A DNA stretch of 32,601 nt from Pseudomonadota bacterium (lineage in GTDB: Bacteria; Pseudomonadota; Gammaproteobacteria; Arenicellales; UBA868): the NCBI GenBank assembly GCA_016845525.1, contig JAERSQ010000096.1, forward strand, positions 1-32,601, written 5' to 3'. Both the position numbers and the translations under genes were made by a program. Positions 6,158 to 12,694 of the stretch are shown one piece after another (the stretch's first letter is position 1; every line of letters begins with the position of its first letter). A model generated the notes under the pieces. The model was not told where the DNA came from and did no database searches. It saw only the letters and a list, made by a program, of their open reading frames with translations.

Positions 6158-6934
6158 ATGAAAGCACATATCGTTCTGGCTCACCCGGAGAGCAAATCGT
6201 TCAATGGTCAACTGGCGAAGGCCACGCGCAGCACGCTACAAACGGCCGGATGGGAAGTGACCTTGTCGGACCTGTACACGGATGGCTTCGATCCACTGGA
6301 GGGGCCGGGACACTATCAGACGCGGGCGGACAGTGAGCGTTTTCACGCGCAGACCGAGCAACGGTTTCACGCCGACAACGACTCGACACCGCAGGACGTG
6401 GTTGCAGAAAAGAGCAAACTGCTGCAAGCCGACCTGCTGGTCGTGCACTTCCCGCTTTGGTGGTTCGGTATGCCAGCGATGTTGAAGGGATGGATCGATC
6501 GGGTGTTCGTCTACGGTGCCGTCTATCGCGGGCAAATGCGTTACGACACCGGTATCTGCCGGGACAAGAAGATGCTGGCCTGCATCACCACGGGTGCGTC
6601 CGAAGCTTCCTGTTCGTTCAACGGTCGAGAGGGCGATTCCAGACTGCATGCCTGGCCGCTGCTGTTTCCGTTTCGCTACATCGGCTTCGATGTGCTGGAG
6701 CCGGTATTCTTCCATGGCGTCGGAGGTGTGGCTTCAATCGAGGCCGACGAGGACGGCCTCACCGGTACGGATCTGTTCATGCAACAGTGGGTCGAGGTAT
6801 TGACCGATCTCGACGACCGTGGCAGTACGCCTTACAACACGGACGACGATTTTGACGAGAACAAGCAATTGAATCCCGGCGCCCCGGTTTTTGGTCCGTT
6901 CATCTCACACCGTGCGAATACTCCCTGGGACTGA
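6158..6934 (+). CDS. NAD(P)H dehydrogenase (quinone)-like flavoprotein, flavodoxin-2 fold (258 aa)
   Basis: The start is ATG 6158, with AGGA 9 bases upstream. The longer frame from 6086 has no ribosome-binding site and a non-homologous start. The protein begins MKAHIVLAHPESKSFNGQLA, the FMN/FAD phosphate-binding loop of the flavodoxin-like NQO/KefF/MdaB family. The family hallmark ADLLVVHFPLWWFGMPAMLK, followed by GWIDRVF, is present. These enzymes reduce quinones or nitro compounds by two electrons with NAD(P)H in the cytoplasm. The C-terminal extension of about 40 residues is longer than in KefF and more like NQO1-type proteins. It is intact although its neighbours are remnants: a short ORF upstream and a racemase tail 15 bases downstream. 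Confidence 0.9.
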   Translation: MKAHIVLAHPESKSFNGQLAKATRSTLQTAGWEVTLSDLYTDGFDPLEGPGHYQTRADSERFHAQTEQRFHADNDSTPQDVVAEKSKLLQADLLVVHFPLWWFGMPAMLKGWIDRVFVYGAVYRGQMRYDTGICRDKKMLACITTGASEASCSFNGREGDSRLHAWPLLFPFRYIGFDVLEPVFFHGVGGVASIEADEDGLTGTDLFMQQWVEVLTDLDDRGSTPYNTDDDFDENKQLNPGAPVFGPFISHRANTPWD

Positions 6935-6949
6935 CTGTCCCTGACGGTT

Positions 6950-7099
6950 GCCACGGCGCGGCATGCGGATGCGGTAGACGGTGTCATATTCGGTTGCACA
7001 GAAGTGGGTTTGCTGGTGCGCCCGGACGATTTCGACGTGCCGTGCTTTGATACGACTGAAATTCATGCACGTGCGGCCATCGACTTTGCGATTGCATAG
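6950..7099 (+). pseudogene. C-terminal remnant of an aspartate/glutamate racemase
   Basis: The frame ending at TAG 7097-7099 encodes AVDGVIFGCTEVGLLV followed by FDVPCFDTTEIHARAAIDFA. This is the conserved end of the YgeA/aspartate racemase family, in which the Cys of GCTE is one of the two catalytic acid/base cysteines. About 45 residues remain of a protein of about 230. There is no start, and the frame begins right after the stop of the preceding flavoprotein gene. The first catalytic cysteine region is absent, so it cannot be active. Confidence 0.85.
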
Positions 7100-7129
7100 A
7101 CAAGTGTGTATGAGAGGCCCGGGCGTTAA

Positions 7130-7315
7130 TGTCGACGAACATTGCCGGTCGAATGGGTGCGGACTGCCCCCCTCGGCGCGTGGCAGTATCAGGTCGCAGC
7201 GGTGCCGGATTCGGGGCGGCATTACACCGTTGCCAGGGGATACAACCGCAGGCAGCAGCTGTTGGACCTGGGTAAAAAGGGCGTTTATCCTTCCTATACT
7301 CCTGAGACGTTCTGA
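7130..7315 (+). pseudogene. C-terminal remnant of an unrecognised protein, copy 2
   Basis: Following a stop near 7127, an open frame without a usable start codes for EWVRTAPLGAWQYQVAAV, then YNRRQQLLDLGKKGVYPSY, and stops at TGA 7313-7315. The composition looks protein-like. It shares LG-K/E-KGVYPSY with the frame at 2556-2744. I do not recognise the family, so it is recorded as a probable gene tail of unknown function. The segment from 7316 to 7530 holds no gene I can support, only the FNR-like site at 7404. Confidence 0.45.
7246..7298 (+). repeat. 53-bp direct repeat, copy 2
   Basis: This is the partner of 2567-2619, with 47/53 identity and the last 24 bases identical. It lies inside the protein-like remnant at 7130-7315. 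Similarity fades quickly on both sides. Confidence 0.7.
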
Positions 7316-7403
7316 TACTCCCGACGTCGAGCCGCGATGGCACAGCAAAGGTGCAGTTTTAACCGCCCGGGCATTCCCGGTCACTTTCGAATTGTGGGGA
7401 AAG

Positions 7404-7417
7404 TTGACCATGATCAA
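7404..7417. promoter_or_regulatory. FNR/CRP-like palindrome upstream of the FtsX operon
   Basis: TTGACCATGATCAA matches the FNR pattern TTGAT-N4-ATCAA with one mismatch. It lies 113 bases before the likely first start of the LolA-like/FtsX operon. A poor -10-like TATGCT occurs at 7441-7446, near the position expected for a class II promoter. This is a candidate only. Confidence 0.35.
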
Positions 7418-7530
7418 CCGCCGCGGTCCTCAGCCTCAGATATGCTCCCGGTGGAACGCGATCAGTTACCGTCATCACCCCTGATCACTGACGCCGCCAC
7501 ACTTTGACAGTCCACGAAAATCCAGTATCC

Positions 7531-8304
7531 GTGCAGACCCGCCCGGCAAGACGTTGGTGGTGGCGGGCATTGTTGCCGCTGCTGGTGTTCAGCCATGATG
7601 CTGCGGGTTTTGACCCCGGGAACGCGTACGACATCGTTAAGAGGGCTTGGACCCATTGGCGCGGGCTGTCGTCTTACTCCGAGGTGACCATGACCATCCA
7701 TCGACCGGAGTGGGAGCGGGTCATGTCCATGCGGATTTGGACTAAGGGGGATTCGCGTTCACTCGTCCGGGTGACGGCACCCAGGCGGGATGCAGGCAAC
7801 GGCACGCTGCTGGTGGATAACAGCATGTGGACATTCTCGCCCAAGATCAATCGGATCATGAAGATTCCCTCGTCGATGATGCACCAGGGCTGGCTGGGAT
7901 CGGATTTCAGCAACAGTGATGTGTCCAGAGCGGATAGTATTCTCGATCAGTATGATCACCGGCTGGTCGACCAATACCGGCAGGACGATGTTCCCATCTA
8001 CGTCATCGAATCCGTACCGCATGAAGATGCACCAGTGGTCTGGGGCCGTGAGGTGTTGCATATATCAGACCACAACATCCTGGTCCGTCATGAATTCTTT
8101 GACCAGGAAGGTCAGCTGGTCAAGCGCCTGAGCACGCTTGAGATTGCCCGGATGGACGGCCGGATGATTGCCGCGCGGCAGCGGATGCACAGAGTGGGCA
8201 AGGATAATGAGTGGACCGAGATCAGGGTGAATTCGGCCAGGTACGATATCGTACTGGACCAGAATCTGTTCACCCGCGCTAACCTGCGCAACCCCCGTGA
8301 ATGA
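7531..8304 (+). CDS. periplasmic LolA-like (outer-membrane lipoprotein-sorting type) protein (257 aa)
   Basis: GTG 7531 gives an Arg/Trp-rich n-region followed by the hydrophobic ALLPLLVFSHDAAG, a plausible signal peptide. TTG 7504 is the alternative, and neither has a clear ribosome-binding site. The mature part resembles the LolA-like 'outer membrane lipoprotein-sorting protein' family: SEVTMTIHRPEWERVMSMRI, then LVRVTAPRRDAGNGTLLVDN, then MWTFSPKINRIMKIP, then WLGSDFSNSD. Such proteins form a half-barrel that shields lipid chains, and many are encoded beside exporters. The stop overlaps the next start as ATGA. It heads a five-gene operon with two FtsX permeases, an ATPase and an outer-membrane protein, so it is likely the periplasmic carrier of that system. 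The cargo is unknown. Confidence 0.85.
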   Translation: MQTRPARRWWWRALLPLLVFSHDAAGFDPGNAYDIVKRAWTHWRGLSSYSEVTMTIHRPEWERVMSMRIWTKGDSRSLVRVTAPRRDAGNGTLLVDNSMWTFSPKINRIMKIPSSMMHQGWLGSDFSNSDVSRADSILDQYDHRLVDQYRQDDVPIYVIESVPHEDAPVVWGREVLHISDHNILVRHEFFDQEGQLVKRLSTLEIARMDGRMIAARQRMHRVGKDNEWTEIRVNSARYDIVLDQNLFTRANLRNPRE

Positions 8305-9530
8305 TTTACGGCATTACCCTTAGCCTCGCTTGGCGGAACCTCTGGCGGCAGCCCTGGCGCACCTGGCTGACGGTTGTGGCGATGGTGTTCTCGAACACCC
8401 TGCTGGTGTTCATGGTCTCGCTGCAGTTCGGGATGTATCGTTTGATGTACGAGAACAGCCTGAATATGTTTCATGGGCATCTTCAGGTTCAGGCCGAAGG
8501 CTATCTGGATGAACCGTGGATGCGTTTTTCGGTGCCTGGTATTGCGGCGCTTGCAAGCGACCTGCGGACTGCCGTACCCGAAGCCCGGGTTTCCGCCCGT
8601 GCCTCGGCATTCGTCCTTGTGTCGAGTGCCGATCGCAGTTACGGCGTGCAGTTGATCGGTGTCCAACCGGACTTCGAACCGGCCGTATCCACCTTGCCCG
8701 GCTTGATTAAGGCCGGAAGATGGCTGAGCGGCACCGCTCCCGAGGCGGTGATCGGTTCGGTTCTGGCGCGCAATCTGAAAGTTCAACCCGGCGATGAACT
8801 GACCTTTTTGGGCAGTGGCCGGGATGGCTCCTTCGCGGCCGCAGTGGCGACCGTGGTGGGAGTCTTCGACAGCGGGGCTGCAGACATCGACCGGAGCCTG
8901 ATCGAGATTCCGCTCGCGGCTTTTCAGGATATTTTCAGCATGGACGGCCATGGCCACAGTGTGGTCATCAGTATGCCAGACGTGTTCGATCTGGATCCGG
9001 CCAAAGCCGCCATCCGGCAGTCCATAGACGATGCGGGGCCGGTACTCCACCACTGGGATGCACTACAGCCCGGACTGCGGCAAACGGTGCAAGCCGACAT
9101 GGTCGGTTCGTGGTTCATGTACGCTGTGCTGATTGCGCTGGTTGCATTCAGCGTACTGAACACCCAGCTCATGTCAGTACTCGACCGCACCCGGGAGTTT
9201 GGTATCGTCATGGCGCTCGGACTGAAACCAGGCCGGCTGGGGCGTCTGTTGTTGTTTGAGACTGCCATCATGGCCGGGCTGGGACTGCTGCTTGGGGTTG
9301 CACTCGGTGTTGCGGTAGTACTTTATTTTCAGGTGTACGGGTTCAGTTATCCCGGTCTGGAAGAGGCGGCAGCGCGATTCAACCTGCCGGGACGGATCTA
9401 CCCCAGTGCCTCATTTGCTTCAGTCATACTGGGCCCGTTGGTGGTGTTCGCCGCGTGCCTCGCAGCTGCTGTATATCCGATAGCGAAATTGTTGCGTATG
9501 CAGCCGGTGGCTGCCATGCAGGCGGCATGA
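8301..9530 (+). CDS. FtsX/LolC-E-type ABC permease, first subunit (409 aa)
   Basis: This is an inner-membrane protein with the standard FtsX/MacB layout. It has an N-terminal amphipathic start (SLAWRNLWRQPWRTWL) leading into transmembrane segment 1 (about 18-40), then a large periplasmic domain (about 45-265). Three C-terminal segments follow, near 270-293, 315-340 and 375-397. Between segments 2 and 3 lies LDRTREFGIVMALGLKPGRL, the cytoplasmic coupling-helix region that meets the ATPase. It overlaps both neighbours by four bases (ATGA). With the next gene it would form a heterodimeric permease like LolC/LolE. Unlike a true lolCDE locus, the operon also encodes its own LolA-like protein and an outer-membrane protein. 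Confidence 0.9.
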   Translation: MIYGITLSLAWRNLWRQPWRTWLTVVAMVFSNTLLVFMVSLQFGMYRLMYENSLNMFHGHLQVQAEGYLDEPWMRFSVPGIAALASDLRTAVPEARVSARASAFVLVSSADRSYGVQLIGVQPDFEPAVSTLPGLIKAGRWLSGTAPEAVIGSVLARNLKVQPGDELTFLGSGRDGSFAAAVATVVGVFDSGAADIDRSLIEIPLAAFQDIFSMDGHGHSVVISMPDVFDLDPAKAAIRQSIDDAGPVLHHWDALQPGLRQTVQADMVGSWFMYAVLIALVAFSVLNTQLMSVLDRTREFGIVMALGLKPGRLGRLLLFETAIMAGLGLLLGVALGVAVVLYFQVYGFSYPGLEEAAARFNLPGRIYPSASFASVILGPLVVFAACLAAAVYPIAKLLRMQPVAAMQAA

Positions 9531-10759
9531 TGGGTATACCGCTGGCAGTGCTGCTGCGTATGGGCTGGCGCAACCTGTGGCGGAACTACCGGCGGACGCT
9601 GATCATGCTTGCCGCGATTACCACCGGTGTGTGGGCCATGATTTTCATGAGTGCAATCATGCGGGGCATGGTTGATGACATGGTGCAAACGGCAGTAGGT
9701 AACCTGCCGGGGCACATCCAGATCCATCATCCTGAGTATCTCGACGATCCGAGTATTGCAAACTCCATGCCGCCCCCCGATCAGGCCCTGCGCGAGGCGC
9801 TGGCCCATCCGGACATCCTAAAATGGTCATCGCGGGTGCGGGTGCCTGCGGTCATCACCAGCGAGCACGATACCCGGGGTGTGACCCTGGTCGGCATCGA
9901 CCCTGAGGCCGAGTCGGGTCTGTCATCCGTTGCCGATGCAGTGGTTAGCGGCCGGTTCCTGCACTCGGCACAGGACCGCGGACTGATCGTGGGCCGTAAA
10001 CTGCTCAACAACCTGAAGACCCGGGTGGATCGCCGGGTCGTCGTGATGAGTCAGGATCCTGATAACCAAATCATTGATCGGGGTTTCCGCATCGTCGGCG
10101 TGTTTGAGGCAGAACTGGAAAGCACCGAGCAGGCCTTTATCTTTGCCGGGCGCAAAACAGTTCAGTCCCTTTTGAGCATGGGCGACCGCATCTCGGAGGT
10201 CGTTGTGCTCGGGCGCAGTTACCGGGACGTGCAGGCGCTGGCCCCCCTCGAGCAGGCCGCAGGTGCCGGACGGGAAGTGTTGCCGTGGTATGAACTCGAT
10301 ACTTACCTCGGCACCATGTTGTCCACCATGGACGGCTTCGTATGGGTGTGGATTGTAGTGATATTCCTCGCCTTGTCCTTCGGCCTGGTCAACACTCTGG
10401 CCATGGCGGTGTTCGAGCGGGCGCGGGAGATCGGACTGATGCAGGCTCTCGGTATGCGGCCGTTTATGATTCTCTCTCAGGTCCTGCTTGAAACACTGCT
10501 GCTGCTGGCCATTGGACTGATCACCGGCAATCTGCTGGCGCTGCTATCCATCGCTCTGACGCAAGAGGGTATCGACCTGTCTATGGTCTCAGAGGGGATG
10601 CAGATGATGGGGGTCAGCCAGGTGCTACGGCCAGCGCTGCTGCCGGGCGATGTCCTCCTCGCCGACGCTGTGGTCATCGTGCTGGGGTTGCTGGCCGGGT
10701 TGTTTCCGGCCTGGCGTGCTGCCCGCCAGCGGCCGGTAACAGCCCTCAGCCGGAGTTGA
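9527..10759 (+). CDS. FtsX/LolC-E-type ABC permease, second subunit (410 aa)
   Basis: ATG 9527 overlaps the preceding TGA as ATGA. An earlier in-frame start would reach far into the upstream gene. The protein has the same architecture as its neighbour: MGWRNLWRNYRRTLIML leading into segment 1 (about 22-47), a periplasmic domain of about 220 residues, and three C-terminal segments (about 275-297, 322-345 and 384-402). The coupling region reads FERAREIGLMQALGMRP. Paralogy with the first permease suggests an obligate heterodimer. Shared N-terminal WRNLWR motifs support duplication of an ancestral subunit. Confidence 0.9.
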   Translation: MMGIPLAVLLRMGWRNLWRNYRRTLIMLAAITTGVWAMIFMSAIMRGMVDDMVQTAVGNLPGHIQIHHPEYLDDPSIANSMPPPDQALREALAHPDILKWSSRVRVPAVITSEHDTRGVTLVGIDPEAESGLSSVADAVVSGRFLHSAQDRGLIVGRKLLNNLKTRVDRRVVVMSQDPDNQIIDRGFRIVGVFEAELESTEQAFIFAGRKTVQSLLSMGDRISEVVVLGRSYRDVQALAPLEQAAGAGREVLPWYELDTYLGTMLSTMDGFVWVWIVVIFLALSFGLVNTLAMAVFERAREIGLMQALGMRPFMILSQVLLETLLLLAIGLITGNLLALLSIALTQEGIDLSMVSEGMQMMGVSQVLRPALLPGDVLLADAVVIVLGLLAGLFPAWRAARQRPVTALSRS

Positions 10760-10764
10760 CCATC

Positions 10765-11448
10765 ATGAGTACCGTTCGCTGTGTCGACCTGTGCCGCACT
10801 TTTGTGCAGGGGGAACAGACCATCAAGGCCCTCGATCATGTCGATCTGGAGATCGACAGACGGGAGTTCGTATGCCTGTCTGGTCCATCCGGGTCGGGCA
10901 AGACCACATTGCTGAACGCCATCGGCGGGCTCGATAAACCGACCAGCGGCGAGGTGTGGGTAGCGGGGAAGCGGATAGACAACCTGAACAAAGGCGAACT
11001 CGCGGACCTGCGGCTGCACCATATCGGGTTCGTGTTTCAGGCCTACAACCTGATTCCCGTGCTGACTGCGCTGGAGAATGTCGAGTTTGTCATGCAGGTC
11101 CAGGGGGTTCCGGCGGAACAGCGGCGCCTGGCGTCACTCAGCATACTGCAAGAGGTGGGCCTGCGGGGGATGGAAGAGCGCCGGCCGGCGCAACTCTCGG
11201 GGGGGCAGCAGCAGCGGGTTGCCGTGGCGCGGGCGATCGTATCGCATCCTGCCATGATACTCGCGGACGAACCAACAGCGAACCTGGATTCGACCTCCGC
11301 CGAGCGCTTGATGGATCTGTTTGCCGCCCTAAACCGCCACCACGATACCACGTTTATCGTGTCCACCCACGACCCCCGGGTGATGGCCTATGCCCGGCGC
11401 TTGATCCGGCTGGTAGACGGTCGTATCGAGAAAGATGAATTCCGCTAA
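10765..11448 (+). CDS. ABC transporter ATP-binding protein, LolD/MacB type (227 aa)
   Basis: ATG 10765 has GGAG 9 bases upstream, inside the end of the previous gene; an earlier TTG at 10756 is less likely. All ATPase motifs are present: Walker A GPSGSGKTT from residue 40, Q-loop FQAYNLIPVLTALENV, signature LSGGQQQRVAVARA, Walker B MILADEPTANLDS and the H-loop STHDPRVM. The spacing and the DEPTANLDS form are characteristic of the LolD/MacB/FtsE branch that powers FtsX-type permeases by mechanotransmission rather than by moving substrate through the membrane. The 3' end overlaps the outer-membrane protein gene by 14 bases. Confidence 0.94.
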   Translation: MSTVRCVDLCRTFVQGEQTIKALDHVDLEIDRREFVCLSGPSGSGKTTLLNAIGGLDKPTSGEVWVAGKRIDNLNKGELADLRLHHIGFVFQAYNLIPVLTALENVEFVMQVQGVPAEQRRLASLSILQEVGLRGMEERRPAQLSGGQQQRVAVARAIVSHPAMILADEPTANLDSTSAERLMDLFAALNRHHDTTFIVSTHDPRVMAYARRLIRLVDGRIEKDEFR

Positions 11449-12694
11449 AGGGCTGGTGGCGGGGTTGCTGCTGGCGGCCGGCGCTGCGTACGGTCAGGGC
11501 ACGGCCGATCTCGATGGACACCTCAAGTACCGCTTCACCGGCGTCCGTAATCCGGGGGACAGTTTATGGACCGAATCCGCAGGCCGCAGCACGGTTGATC
11601 AGGGTGCCGGCGTCCGGATGAACTTCCATTGGCGCAGGGGAGCTGTCGACGCCCGGATGGATTACCAGTTGACCGGCGTTAAAGGCGAGCGGCTCCTGGC
11701 CGCCGGCGAAGTGTTCCCTGAATCCCTGTCCCCGGGGAGCCGGGCATCCGCTGACGGGTTGCGTCTGCTTGACCTCGCGAGCGTGATCTCCGAGGGAGAG
11801 GACTACGCACTTCAGCACCGGCTGGACCGGTGGTGGTTTGGCCACAGCGGAGAAAACACCACCTTGCGGTTTGGCCGCCAGGCCGTCACATGGGGCAATG
11901 GGCTGTTTTACACACCGATGGATTTTTTCAATCCGTTCGATCCAACCGGTGTCGACAAGGAGTACAAGCCCGGTGATGACATGGTGTACGGCCAGCACCT
12001 AATGAATACCGGTAACGACCTGCAGGGTGTGGCGGTAGTCCGCCGTGATCCTGTCAACCGTGAGGTGGAGCAGGATCAGGCCACGCTGGCTTTTAAGTAT
12101 CACGGACTGCTGGAAACCAGCGAGGTTGACCTGCTGGCTGCGCGTCACTTCAGCGATCAACTGTTCGGGATCGGCGGCAACCGGGAACTTGGGCAAGCTC
12201 TGTGGCGCGGTGATCTGGTGGCCAGCCGCACCGGGGACGATACGGTTTTCACATTTGTCACGAACCTGGCGTATTCCTGGGTCTGGGGTGGAAAGAATGT
12301 CAGCGGTGCTCTGGAATATTTCTTCAATGGCTTCGGCCAGACCGGCGGTGACTACGATCCAGAGGCGCTGTCGCAAAATCCCGCGCTGGTCCAGCGGCTC
12401 GCGCGAGGCGAACTGTTTACGCTGGCGCGCCACTATGTGGCCGGGAGTGTCACCGCCGAAGCCTCACCATTGGTATTGGTGACTCCTAACCTGTTTGTCA
12501 ATCTGTCGGACCAGAGCGGCCTGTTTCAGGTTCTGATCCAGGGTGACGTGAAGCAGGATCTGCTGCTGACGGTAGCGTTCAGTGTCCCGATCGGCCCCGC
12601 AGGCACCGAGTTTGGTGGTATCGAAAGCGACTCGCCGGGAAGGTACCTGTCGACCGGACCGGCAGTTTTCGTGCAGCTGGCGGCCTATTTCTAG
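11435..12694 (+). CDS. putative outer-membrane beta-barrel protein of the FtsX operon (419 aa)
   Basis: A signal peptide (MNSAKGLVAGLLLAAGAAYG, cleaved near GQG) is followed by a sequence of alternating polar and hydrophobic strands. These are rich in Tyr, Trp, Gly and Asn, for example LKYRFTGVRNPGDSLW, TTLRFGRQAVTWGNGLFYTP and FVTNLAYSWVWGGKNVSGAL. It ends in VQLAAYF, with the C-terminal Phe recognised by the BAM machinery. No family is recognised with confidence. Its start lies within the ATPase gene (14-base overlap), so it is translationally coupled to the ABC genes. It is thus the probable outer-membrane component or acceptor of the same system. It could instead be a stand-alone porin-like protein that happens to be cotranscribed. 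Confidence 0.75.
   Translation: MNSAKGLVAGLLLAAGAAYGQGTADLDGHLKYRFTGVRNPGDSLWTESAGRSTVDQGAGVRMNFHWRRGAVDARMDYQLTGVKGERLLAAGEVFPESLSPGSRASADGLRLLDLASVISEGEDYALQHRLDRWWFGHSGENTTLRFGRQAVTWGNGLFYTPMDFFNPFDPTGVDKEYKPGDDMVYGQHLMNTGNDLQGVAVVRRDPVNREVEQDQATLAFKYHGLLETSEVDLLAARHFSDQLFGIGGNRELGQALWRGDLVASRTGDDTVFTFVTNLAYSWVWGGKNVSGALEYFFNGFGQTGGDYDPEALSQNPALVQRLARGELFTLARHYVAGSVTAEASPLVLVTPNLFVNLSDQSGLFQVLIQGDVKQDLLLTVAFSVPIGPAGTEFGGIESDSPGRYLSTGPAVFVQLAAYF

Follow-up and report, generated by a model that had tools for sequence, protein, structure and literature searches.

Positions 7531-12694 of the DNA analysed here, a stretch of 32,601 nucleotides (nt) from contig JAERSQ010000096.1 of assembly GCA_016845525.1 (hereafter the window), carry five genes on the plus strand that probably encode a dedicated system for moving a hydrophobic molecule across the cell envelope. 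Unless another locus is named, coordinates are positions within the window. Translation and Pfam comparison confirmed all five genes and upheld the assignments of carrier, engine and barrel made in the original prediction, which had been derived from the sequence without database searches. The first gene (7531..8304) starts with GTG and encodes a LolA-like, putatively periplasmic carrier of 257 amino acids (aa); an in-frame TTG at 7504 is an alternative start. It is followed by the genes of two permeases of the type VII ATP-binding cassette (ABC) superfamily (8301..9530, 409 aa, and 9527..10759, 410 aa), by that of an ATPase of the MacB/LolD branch (10765..11448, 227 aa) and by that of a predicted outer-membrane beta-barrel (11435..12694, 419 aa) with a signal peptide and a C-terminal phenylalanine. 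At the carrier/permease 1 and permease 1/permease 2 junctions the genes overlap by 4 nt (ATGA), and the barrel gene starts, as predicted, inside the ATPase gene, with an overlap of 14 nt. The prediction had all junctions overlapping, which holds for these three and probably not for the fourth: permease 2 and the ATPase are probably separated by 5 nt. In the closely related loci L057 and L058 the ATPase starts with MSTV, matching the ATG at 10765. An overlap would require the TTG at 10756 as start codon (230 aa).

The N-terminus of the carrier has positive charge followed by a hydrophobic stretch. Its match to PF17131 (LolA_like) is strong (E 5.5e-44; 150.5 bits, cut-off 30), and this was the sole Pfam family found up to E 1, with no match to PF03548 (LolA). 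An AlphaFold2 model built from a 61-sequence alignment (predicted local distance difference test score, pLDDT, 90.7) was used for a fold search, in which the closest structures were 4z48 (DUF1329 family), 9tp6 (Porphyromonas gingivalis LolA3), 3bk5 and 3buu, with template modelling (TM) scores, relative to the model, of 0.72-0.78, that of 9tp6 being 0.78. Among the best 50 matches listed, P. gingivalis LolB scored 0.56 and canonical LolA chains at most 0.47. The carrier belongs to the PF17131 LolA_like / DUF1329 superfamily.

Both permeases were recognized by hydropathy and by their Pfam matches to FtsX (E 3.9e-16 for permease 1, 8e-15 for permease 2) and MacB_PCD (E 2.1e-15 and 8e-13). Each has four hydrophobic regions, one at the N-terminus and three at the C-terminus, which flank about 220 residues corresponding to a MacB-like periplasmic domain. 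With the lolCE model TIGR02212 (cut-off 362.45 bits) permease 1 scored about 90 bits (89.6-90.2) and permease 2 118.5-119.1 bits. The ATPase matches ABC_tran (E 1.4e-32) and has the Walker A, signature and Walker B motifs; its best NCBIfam model was LolD (TIGR02211), with 216 bits below the cut-off of 307.75, and DevA (209.3) and MacB (208.8) were nearly tied with it. Since the permeases have four transmembrane segments, an extracytoplasmic domain after the first of these, an FtsX C-terminal domain and a partner ATPase, the engine is a member of the type VII ABC (MacB/LolCDE/FtsEX) superfamily. In five of the 22 loci found in other genomes of the class (L039-L042, L044; see below) the permeases are fused into a single 835-aa open reading frame (ORF), with the ATPase upstream, and this fusion suggests that permeases 1 and 2 may form a 1:1 pair.

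The AlphaFold2 model of the barrel, based on a 59-sequence alignment (A3), had a mean pLDDT of 92.3 and 18 strands of at least 7 residues. Foldseek placed Campylobacter major outer membrane protein (5ldt) at the top (E 9.3e-12), and VIA-align listed OprD/Occ porins, AlgE and Wzi at Z 20.9-23.6, OprD/Occ being nearest, as well as one Omp85-type chain, CdiB, at Z 15.0. No solved structure was related to the barrel by sequence up to E 1. The protein is probably a divergent relative of DUF1302 (PF06980): its own score of 17.4 bits is below the cut-off of 23.2, 30 of 59 family members match at E<=0.01, and the barrel of L039 exceeds the cut-off (26.3 bits). The most conserved segment, residues 147-182 (11873..11980, plus strand; GRQ..WGNG...P.D.FNPF.P...KEYK.GDD), is invariant or nearly so in alignments A1 and A3, and is mostly a long loop joining two predicted strands.

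Conservation of the five-gene unit was followed in three sets of loci. When 274 genomes of the class were searched with the barrel, 21 were positive, the window's own genome included. In the 20 other genomes the five genes adjoined each other in 19 of 22 loci, and the remaining three (L037, L038, L047) were cut by contig ends. In one of the 19 loci, L035 of the single-contig genome G034, the ATPase is present as two ORFs about 220 nt apart (around 6831-7818, minus strand), which looks as if it had been caused by an insertion. A larger sequence collection was scanned with an alignment of six close barrels, chosen because an alignment of 18 was too diverse; of the 427 stretches found, 386 encoded relatives, and the best 80 were kept, which are hence the closest of the 386. 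Among these best 80 the order carrier-permease-permease-ATPase-barrel on one strand was found in 59, one of which (L125) has an extra ORF between ATPase and barrel, 19 were cut by the contig start, and two were exceptions (in L102 the frames are short and broken, and L112 has a different layout). Taking these two sets together, 22 of the 24 misses are explained by contig ends. For the third set, 40 loci were picked from the searches of relatives and of the phylum, in the latter of which the A3 profile had matches, many of them weak, in 83 of 299 genomes. The full set of genes was called in 27 of the 40 loci; the other 13 comprise two barrels without partners and 11 loci, not sorted individually, that were cut by a contig end or were one call short. 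The barrel is kept with the ABC genes across all three sets, more often than chance would have it, which bears out the prediction of a self-contained unit.

Most of the best 80 records are titled as uncultured Gammaproteobacteria, Woeseiaceae and Lysobacterales among them; an endosymbiont of Olavius algarvensis and Candidatus Litorirhabdus singularis IMCC14734 are represented, too. Six are metagenome-assembled genomes titled Acidobacteria or Thermoanaerobaculia/-ales, labels that may be affected by binning. The identical gene order was found in Persicobacter (Bacteroidota) and in Vibrio campbellii, there in a record that is labelled as a 2.06-Mb plasmid and probably represents the second chromosome; the barrels show 23-25% identity. 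Within the window's genus the barrel was present in two of 20 genomes, its own included; these genomes are incomplete, and the system looks accessory there.

Canonical Lol genes are present elsewhere in the assembly, which is 88% complete. It encodes a PF03548 LolA on contig C103, LolB on C128, and on C14 a LolC/E permease (508.5 bits) with an adjoining LolD-like ATPase (305.4 bits, cut-off 307.75). With all these components on other contigs, the possibility that the window holds the housekeeping locus was ruled out. The C14 permease (L053:4045-5974) was the only one of LolC/E type found above the cut-off in the assembly; the canonical Lol pathway here may use a LolF-type homodimer, or a second permease gene may be missing from the incomplete assembly. 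The original prediction had set the cluster apart from canonical lolCDE by the leading position of the carrier gene and by a barrel in place of LolB. Its distinctness from lolCDE stands; the implied picture of a re-wired Lol pathway was revised because of the PF17131 carrier, the Lol-model scores below cut-off and the relatives of carrier and barrel in cassettes driven by transporters of the resistance-nodulation-division (RND) type. Because of these relatives, the natural comparison for the barrel is DUF1302 and not LolB.

Other identities were also rejected. Phage cargo was dismissed since a single viral stretch matched a pattern and none encodes a relative of the barrel. Plasmid cargo was discarded as the barrel had no plasmid match at E 1e-3, a result of little weight because two records of the plasmid collection, found through the carrier search, hold distant barrels. 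A defence system was dropped after PADLOC returned only partial matches, those of both permeases to the LolE-like transmembrane part of a CARF model.

The RND-driven relatives came to light through the carrier family. On contig C203 the gene of the assembly's second PF17131 protein is flanked by those of an MMPL/RND transporter and of a barrel-like protein (407 aa) without Pfam match, the three forming an RND counterpart of the cassette (L052:7415-11803, minus strand). In the class, PF17131 was matched in 70 of 114 genomes, in 60 of them above the cut-off. We took the places down to the 94th best (139.5 bits): 12 were known ABC loci (window included), one was the C203 cassette, one contig-end fragment was left out, and 80 were fetched. 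Three of the latter lacked a carrier ORF; among the 77 classified, 58 had an RND gene on the same strand beside the carrier, four had ABC permeases, and 15 had neither engine called, some of which may be misses since RND was recognized from a single query sequence. The best 94 places thus comprise 59 RND-linked, 16 ABC-linked, 15 with neither and four not classifiable. A homologous barrel accompanied 31 of the 58 RND-linked carriers and a merely barrel-like protein, as defined by a crude rule on length and end residue, another 12; neither was called in 15.

When 59 ABC-linked barrels were compared with 27 RND-linked ones by hhalign, the probability was 97.3 (E 1.7e-11) over 258 columns that include the motif core. 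The controls scored 1.1 (reversed), 0.1-0.2 (five column shuffles) and 0.2, 0.3, 0.5 and 6.2 (four clusters of flanking proteins, the one at 0.2 reading like a TonB receptor). On these sequence comparisons the ABC-linked and RND-linked carriers and barrels are homologous, and the same kind of carrier-barrel pair appears to be served by two engines. In a carrier tree of 91 rows (32 ABC-linked, 59 RND-linked), obtained by a short search without bootstrap, the engines were split at one branch with SH-aLRT 100. Most ABC rows had been found via their barrels, so that loci found by the carrier alone are the fairer test: of these, L136, L137, L228 and L237 placed on the ABC side, and the carrier of L231 joined that side from outside by a long path (98). 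The row of L232, a 106-aa fragment of a second carrier, grouped with the RND carriers. Once L228, L231, L232 and L237 and the 15 carriers without a called engine had been added to the tree, two changes were required to account for the ABC and RND labels. Because so few changes are needed, the engine switch seems to have been rare and ancient, as far as the carrier tree can tell. Three genes in a row on the Ilyobacter polytropus plasmid pILYOP01 (L138, 6944-11588) encode a LolA-like protein, a hypothetical protein of 416 aa that matches DUF1302 weakly (E 0.014) and an RND permease; Fusobacteriota, too, seem to have the RND cassette.

In the window, a flavodoxin-like oxidoreductase (Pfam) is encoded 5' of the carrier gene, together with what we take, from reading the ORF, to be a lipase-like hydrolase; 3' of the barrel gene and on the opposite strand lies an ORF that we read as a presumable DMT-type permease. 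None of the window's flanking ORFs up to 17 kb fell into any flanking cluster. A promoter scan gave four promoter-like sites (2.2 expected), none of them on the plus strand upstream of 7531, and a terminator scan gave four terminator-like sites (4.1 expected). Directly 5' of the carrier gene a TetR-type regulator was observed in L094, L098, L137 and L292. With four of 89 ABC loci and none of 56 RND loci having such a neighbour (the search seeds were taken from two of the four), TetR was ruled out as a general partner; its presence suggests that some hosts regulate the system through a small ligand.

The reading that we favour, with a probability of roughly 0.6, is that the five genes encode a dedicated ABC-driven trans-envelope shuttle with a carrier-barrel pair, the probable cargo being a small hydrophobic compound or lipid. 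The ABC complex would pull the hydrophobic molecule out of the inner membrane and pass it to the LolA-like carrier, whose predicted fold is that of known carriers of hydrophobic ligands. The carrier would deliver the molecule to the 18-strand barrel, as their co-occurrence and homology suggest, and the barrel would insert it into the outer membrane or release it outside. The analysis shows directly which genes are present, how they are conserved, their homologies and their predicted folds; complex formation, cargo and direction of transport are what we infer. Extraction of lipid-like molecules is known from LolCDE and has been proposed for YbbAP-TesA, another type VII ABC system, with hydrophobic compounds as its substrates (PMC12646458). 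By analogy with the RND systems, whose published examples have been linked to monoterpenes and, in Thalassolituus (see below), to alkanes, the probable cargo is an apolar or amphipathic small molecule or lipid; a lipoprotein is less probable. In Castellaniella defragrans, deletion of AmeABCD lowered monoterpene tolerance and increased Nile Red accumulation in de-energised cells, data that point to efflux (PMC6394551). In a benzene-degrading culture a DUF1329/MMPL cluster showed high expression, and Delftia is reported to have been impaired in growth on phenanthrene when a DUF1329 gene was deleted (both PMC13101534).

Several observations weigh against this reading. The RND-linked barrels are only distantly similar to the ABC-linked ones, and the proposed substrate class rests on that analogy. 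Ordinary solute porins and exporters of polysaccharides have the OprD/AlgE/Wzi fold as well. At L231 (G070:C217) and L232 (G021:C62) the layout differs, with two permeases and the ATPase on one strand and the PF17131 carrier between them on the opposite strand; L232 has in addition a barrel-like protein and the second carrier fragment that groups with the RND carriers. At L312 and L321 the barrel was found without partner genes. A cargo gene was sought in the flanks, and no flanking cluster occurred in more than 23 of the 103 sources (102 loci and the window). The contamination of the assembly is 7.4%, so that its other contigs could be foreign. Finally, in Thalassolituus a C28 alkane induces an MMPL-LolA protein and an adjacent predicted porin (PMC6304351), and this relative could serve uptake.

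Among the alternatives, a second, specialised lipoprotein route fares best, even though we consider it unlikely. The ABC complex would extract particular lipoproteins, the carrier would shield their acyl chains, and the barrel would insert them or display them on the surface. LolC/E and LolD were indeed the best NCBIfam matches of permeases and ATPase, the carrier has a fold of the LolA superfamily, and lipoproteins are listed as possible cargo of the Borrelia BBJ23-29 system by its authors (PMC13078400). However, every Lol-model score was far below its cut-off, the carrier lies outside PF03548, and apolar small molecules are what the RND relatives have been linked to. P. gingivalis LolA3, whose fold is close to that of the carrier, interacts only very weakly with LolB according to the available part of PMC13103446, and no widely conserved flanking gene was found, in flanks that were not searched for lipoprotein signals.

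Uptake appears improbable. According to this view the barrel would admit an external hydrophobic compound, which the carrier would ferry inward, and the ABC complex would drive the last step or regenerate the carrier. The proximity of the barrel fold to OprD/Occ porins (by Z) and the induction of the Thalassolituus relatives by alkanes used as food are in agreement with such a role. In contrast, the type VII ABC complexes that PMC12646458 reviews act in the periplasm, in export, extraction or regulation, the AmeABCD data favour efflux, and no widely conserved neighbour, catabolic or other, accompanies the cluster among the 103 sources. Efflux of a soluble or peptide substrate by a MacB-like pump, with the carrier-like protein as adaptor, can be suspected from the MacB_PCD domains, the MacB-branch ATPase and the few TetR-type regulators 5' of the carrier, but we regard it as very improbable, since the five proteins include no match to the MacA/HlyD or TolC families and a helical tunnel like that of TolC is absent from the barrel model, leaving no obvious periplasm-spanning part.

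If the cluster is an ABC-driven shuttle of the kind proposed, it bears on the question of how hydrophobic molecules other than lipopolysaccharide, lipoproteins and phospholipids reach the outer membrane, and a conserved unit of engine, carrier and barrel makes this question testable by one knock-out. The chances seem about even that the system, present in at least Pseudomonadota and Bacteroidota and probably in Acidobacteriota, is of a kind not described before and reflects an ancient carrier-barrel pair that has been combined with two unrelated engines and transports apolar lipids or hydrocarbons independently of Lol, Mla and Lpt. The swap of engines would then be a natural experiment: parts common to the ABC and RND cassettes should define the cargo path, and parts that differ should define the energy supply only. 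It would also give a context to the solved carriers 4z48, 3bk5, 3buu and 9tp6.

In comparison with known systems, the cluster resembles LolABCDE in its type VII ABC engine of two permeases and a LolD-like ATPase, in its carrier of LolA fold and in the logic of connecting inner and outer membrane; it differs by its Lol-model scores below cut-off, by a carrier of another Pfam family and by the barrel in the operon. From MacAB-TolC it is set apart by the absence of Pfam matches to a MacA-type adaptor or a TolC-type duct among the five proteins, and by a barrel modelled as a single chain of 18 strands. YbbAP-TesA of Escherichia coli has a permease of 10 transmembrane segments and a hydrolase partner and, in the description available from PMC12646458, neither carrier nor barrel. 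P. gingivalis LolA3, treated in the available part of PMC13103446 as a LolA paralogue without assigned function, shares with the carrier model a short C-terminal helix and a beta2-beta3 turn without arginine (in the carrier residues 73-75, Gly-Asp-Ser, read off the predicted strands and not from a superposition on LolA). Iron-regulated operons of P. gingivalis and P. intermedia combine an MMPL transporter, a lipoprotein-sorting protein and ABC ATPases (PMC10434189). In the open-access literature without preprints, searched by titles and the beginnings of abstracts, the matches listed contained no ABC-carrier-barrel cassette besides that of the Borrelia paper, and none described an ABC cassette with a DUF1302-type barrel.

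The nearest published systems are AmeABCD and Borrelia BBJ23-BBJ29. As described in PMC6394551, AmeABCD shares with the window system a carrier of the LolA superfamily, a barrel (of DUF1302 type there and probably here) and one energised inner-membrane protein; the homology between ABC- and RND-linked proteins was measured on the fetched RND cassettes, AmeA and AmeB themselves being likened by description. The engine of AmeABCD is an RND (HAE3/MMPL) pump, whereas that of the window is a type VII ABC complex; AmeC has no counterpart in the window, and AmeA is larger (605 aa). The spirochaetal BBJ23-BBJ29 cluster, which was proposed to move a non-polar ligand (PMC13078400), likewise unites a MacB-like type VII ABC transporter, a LolA-like protein and an outer-membrane barrel. 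It differs, as far as the available part of that source describes it, in having one permease (a proposed homodimer), two tetratricopeptide repeat proteins and one unknown protein, and probably also in its barrel, which is of the Omp85 family.

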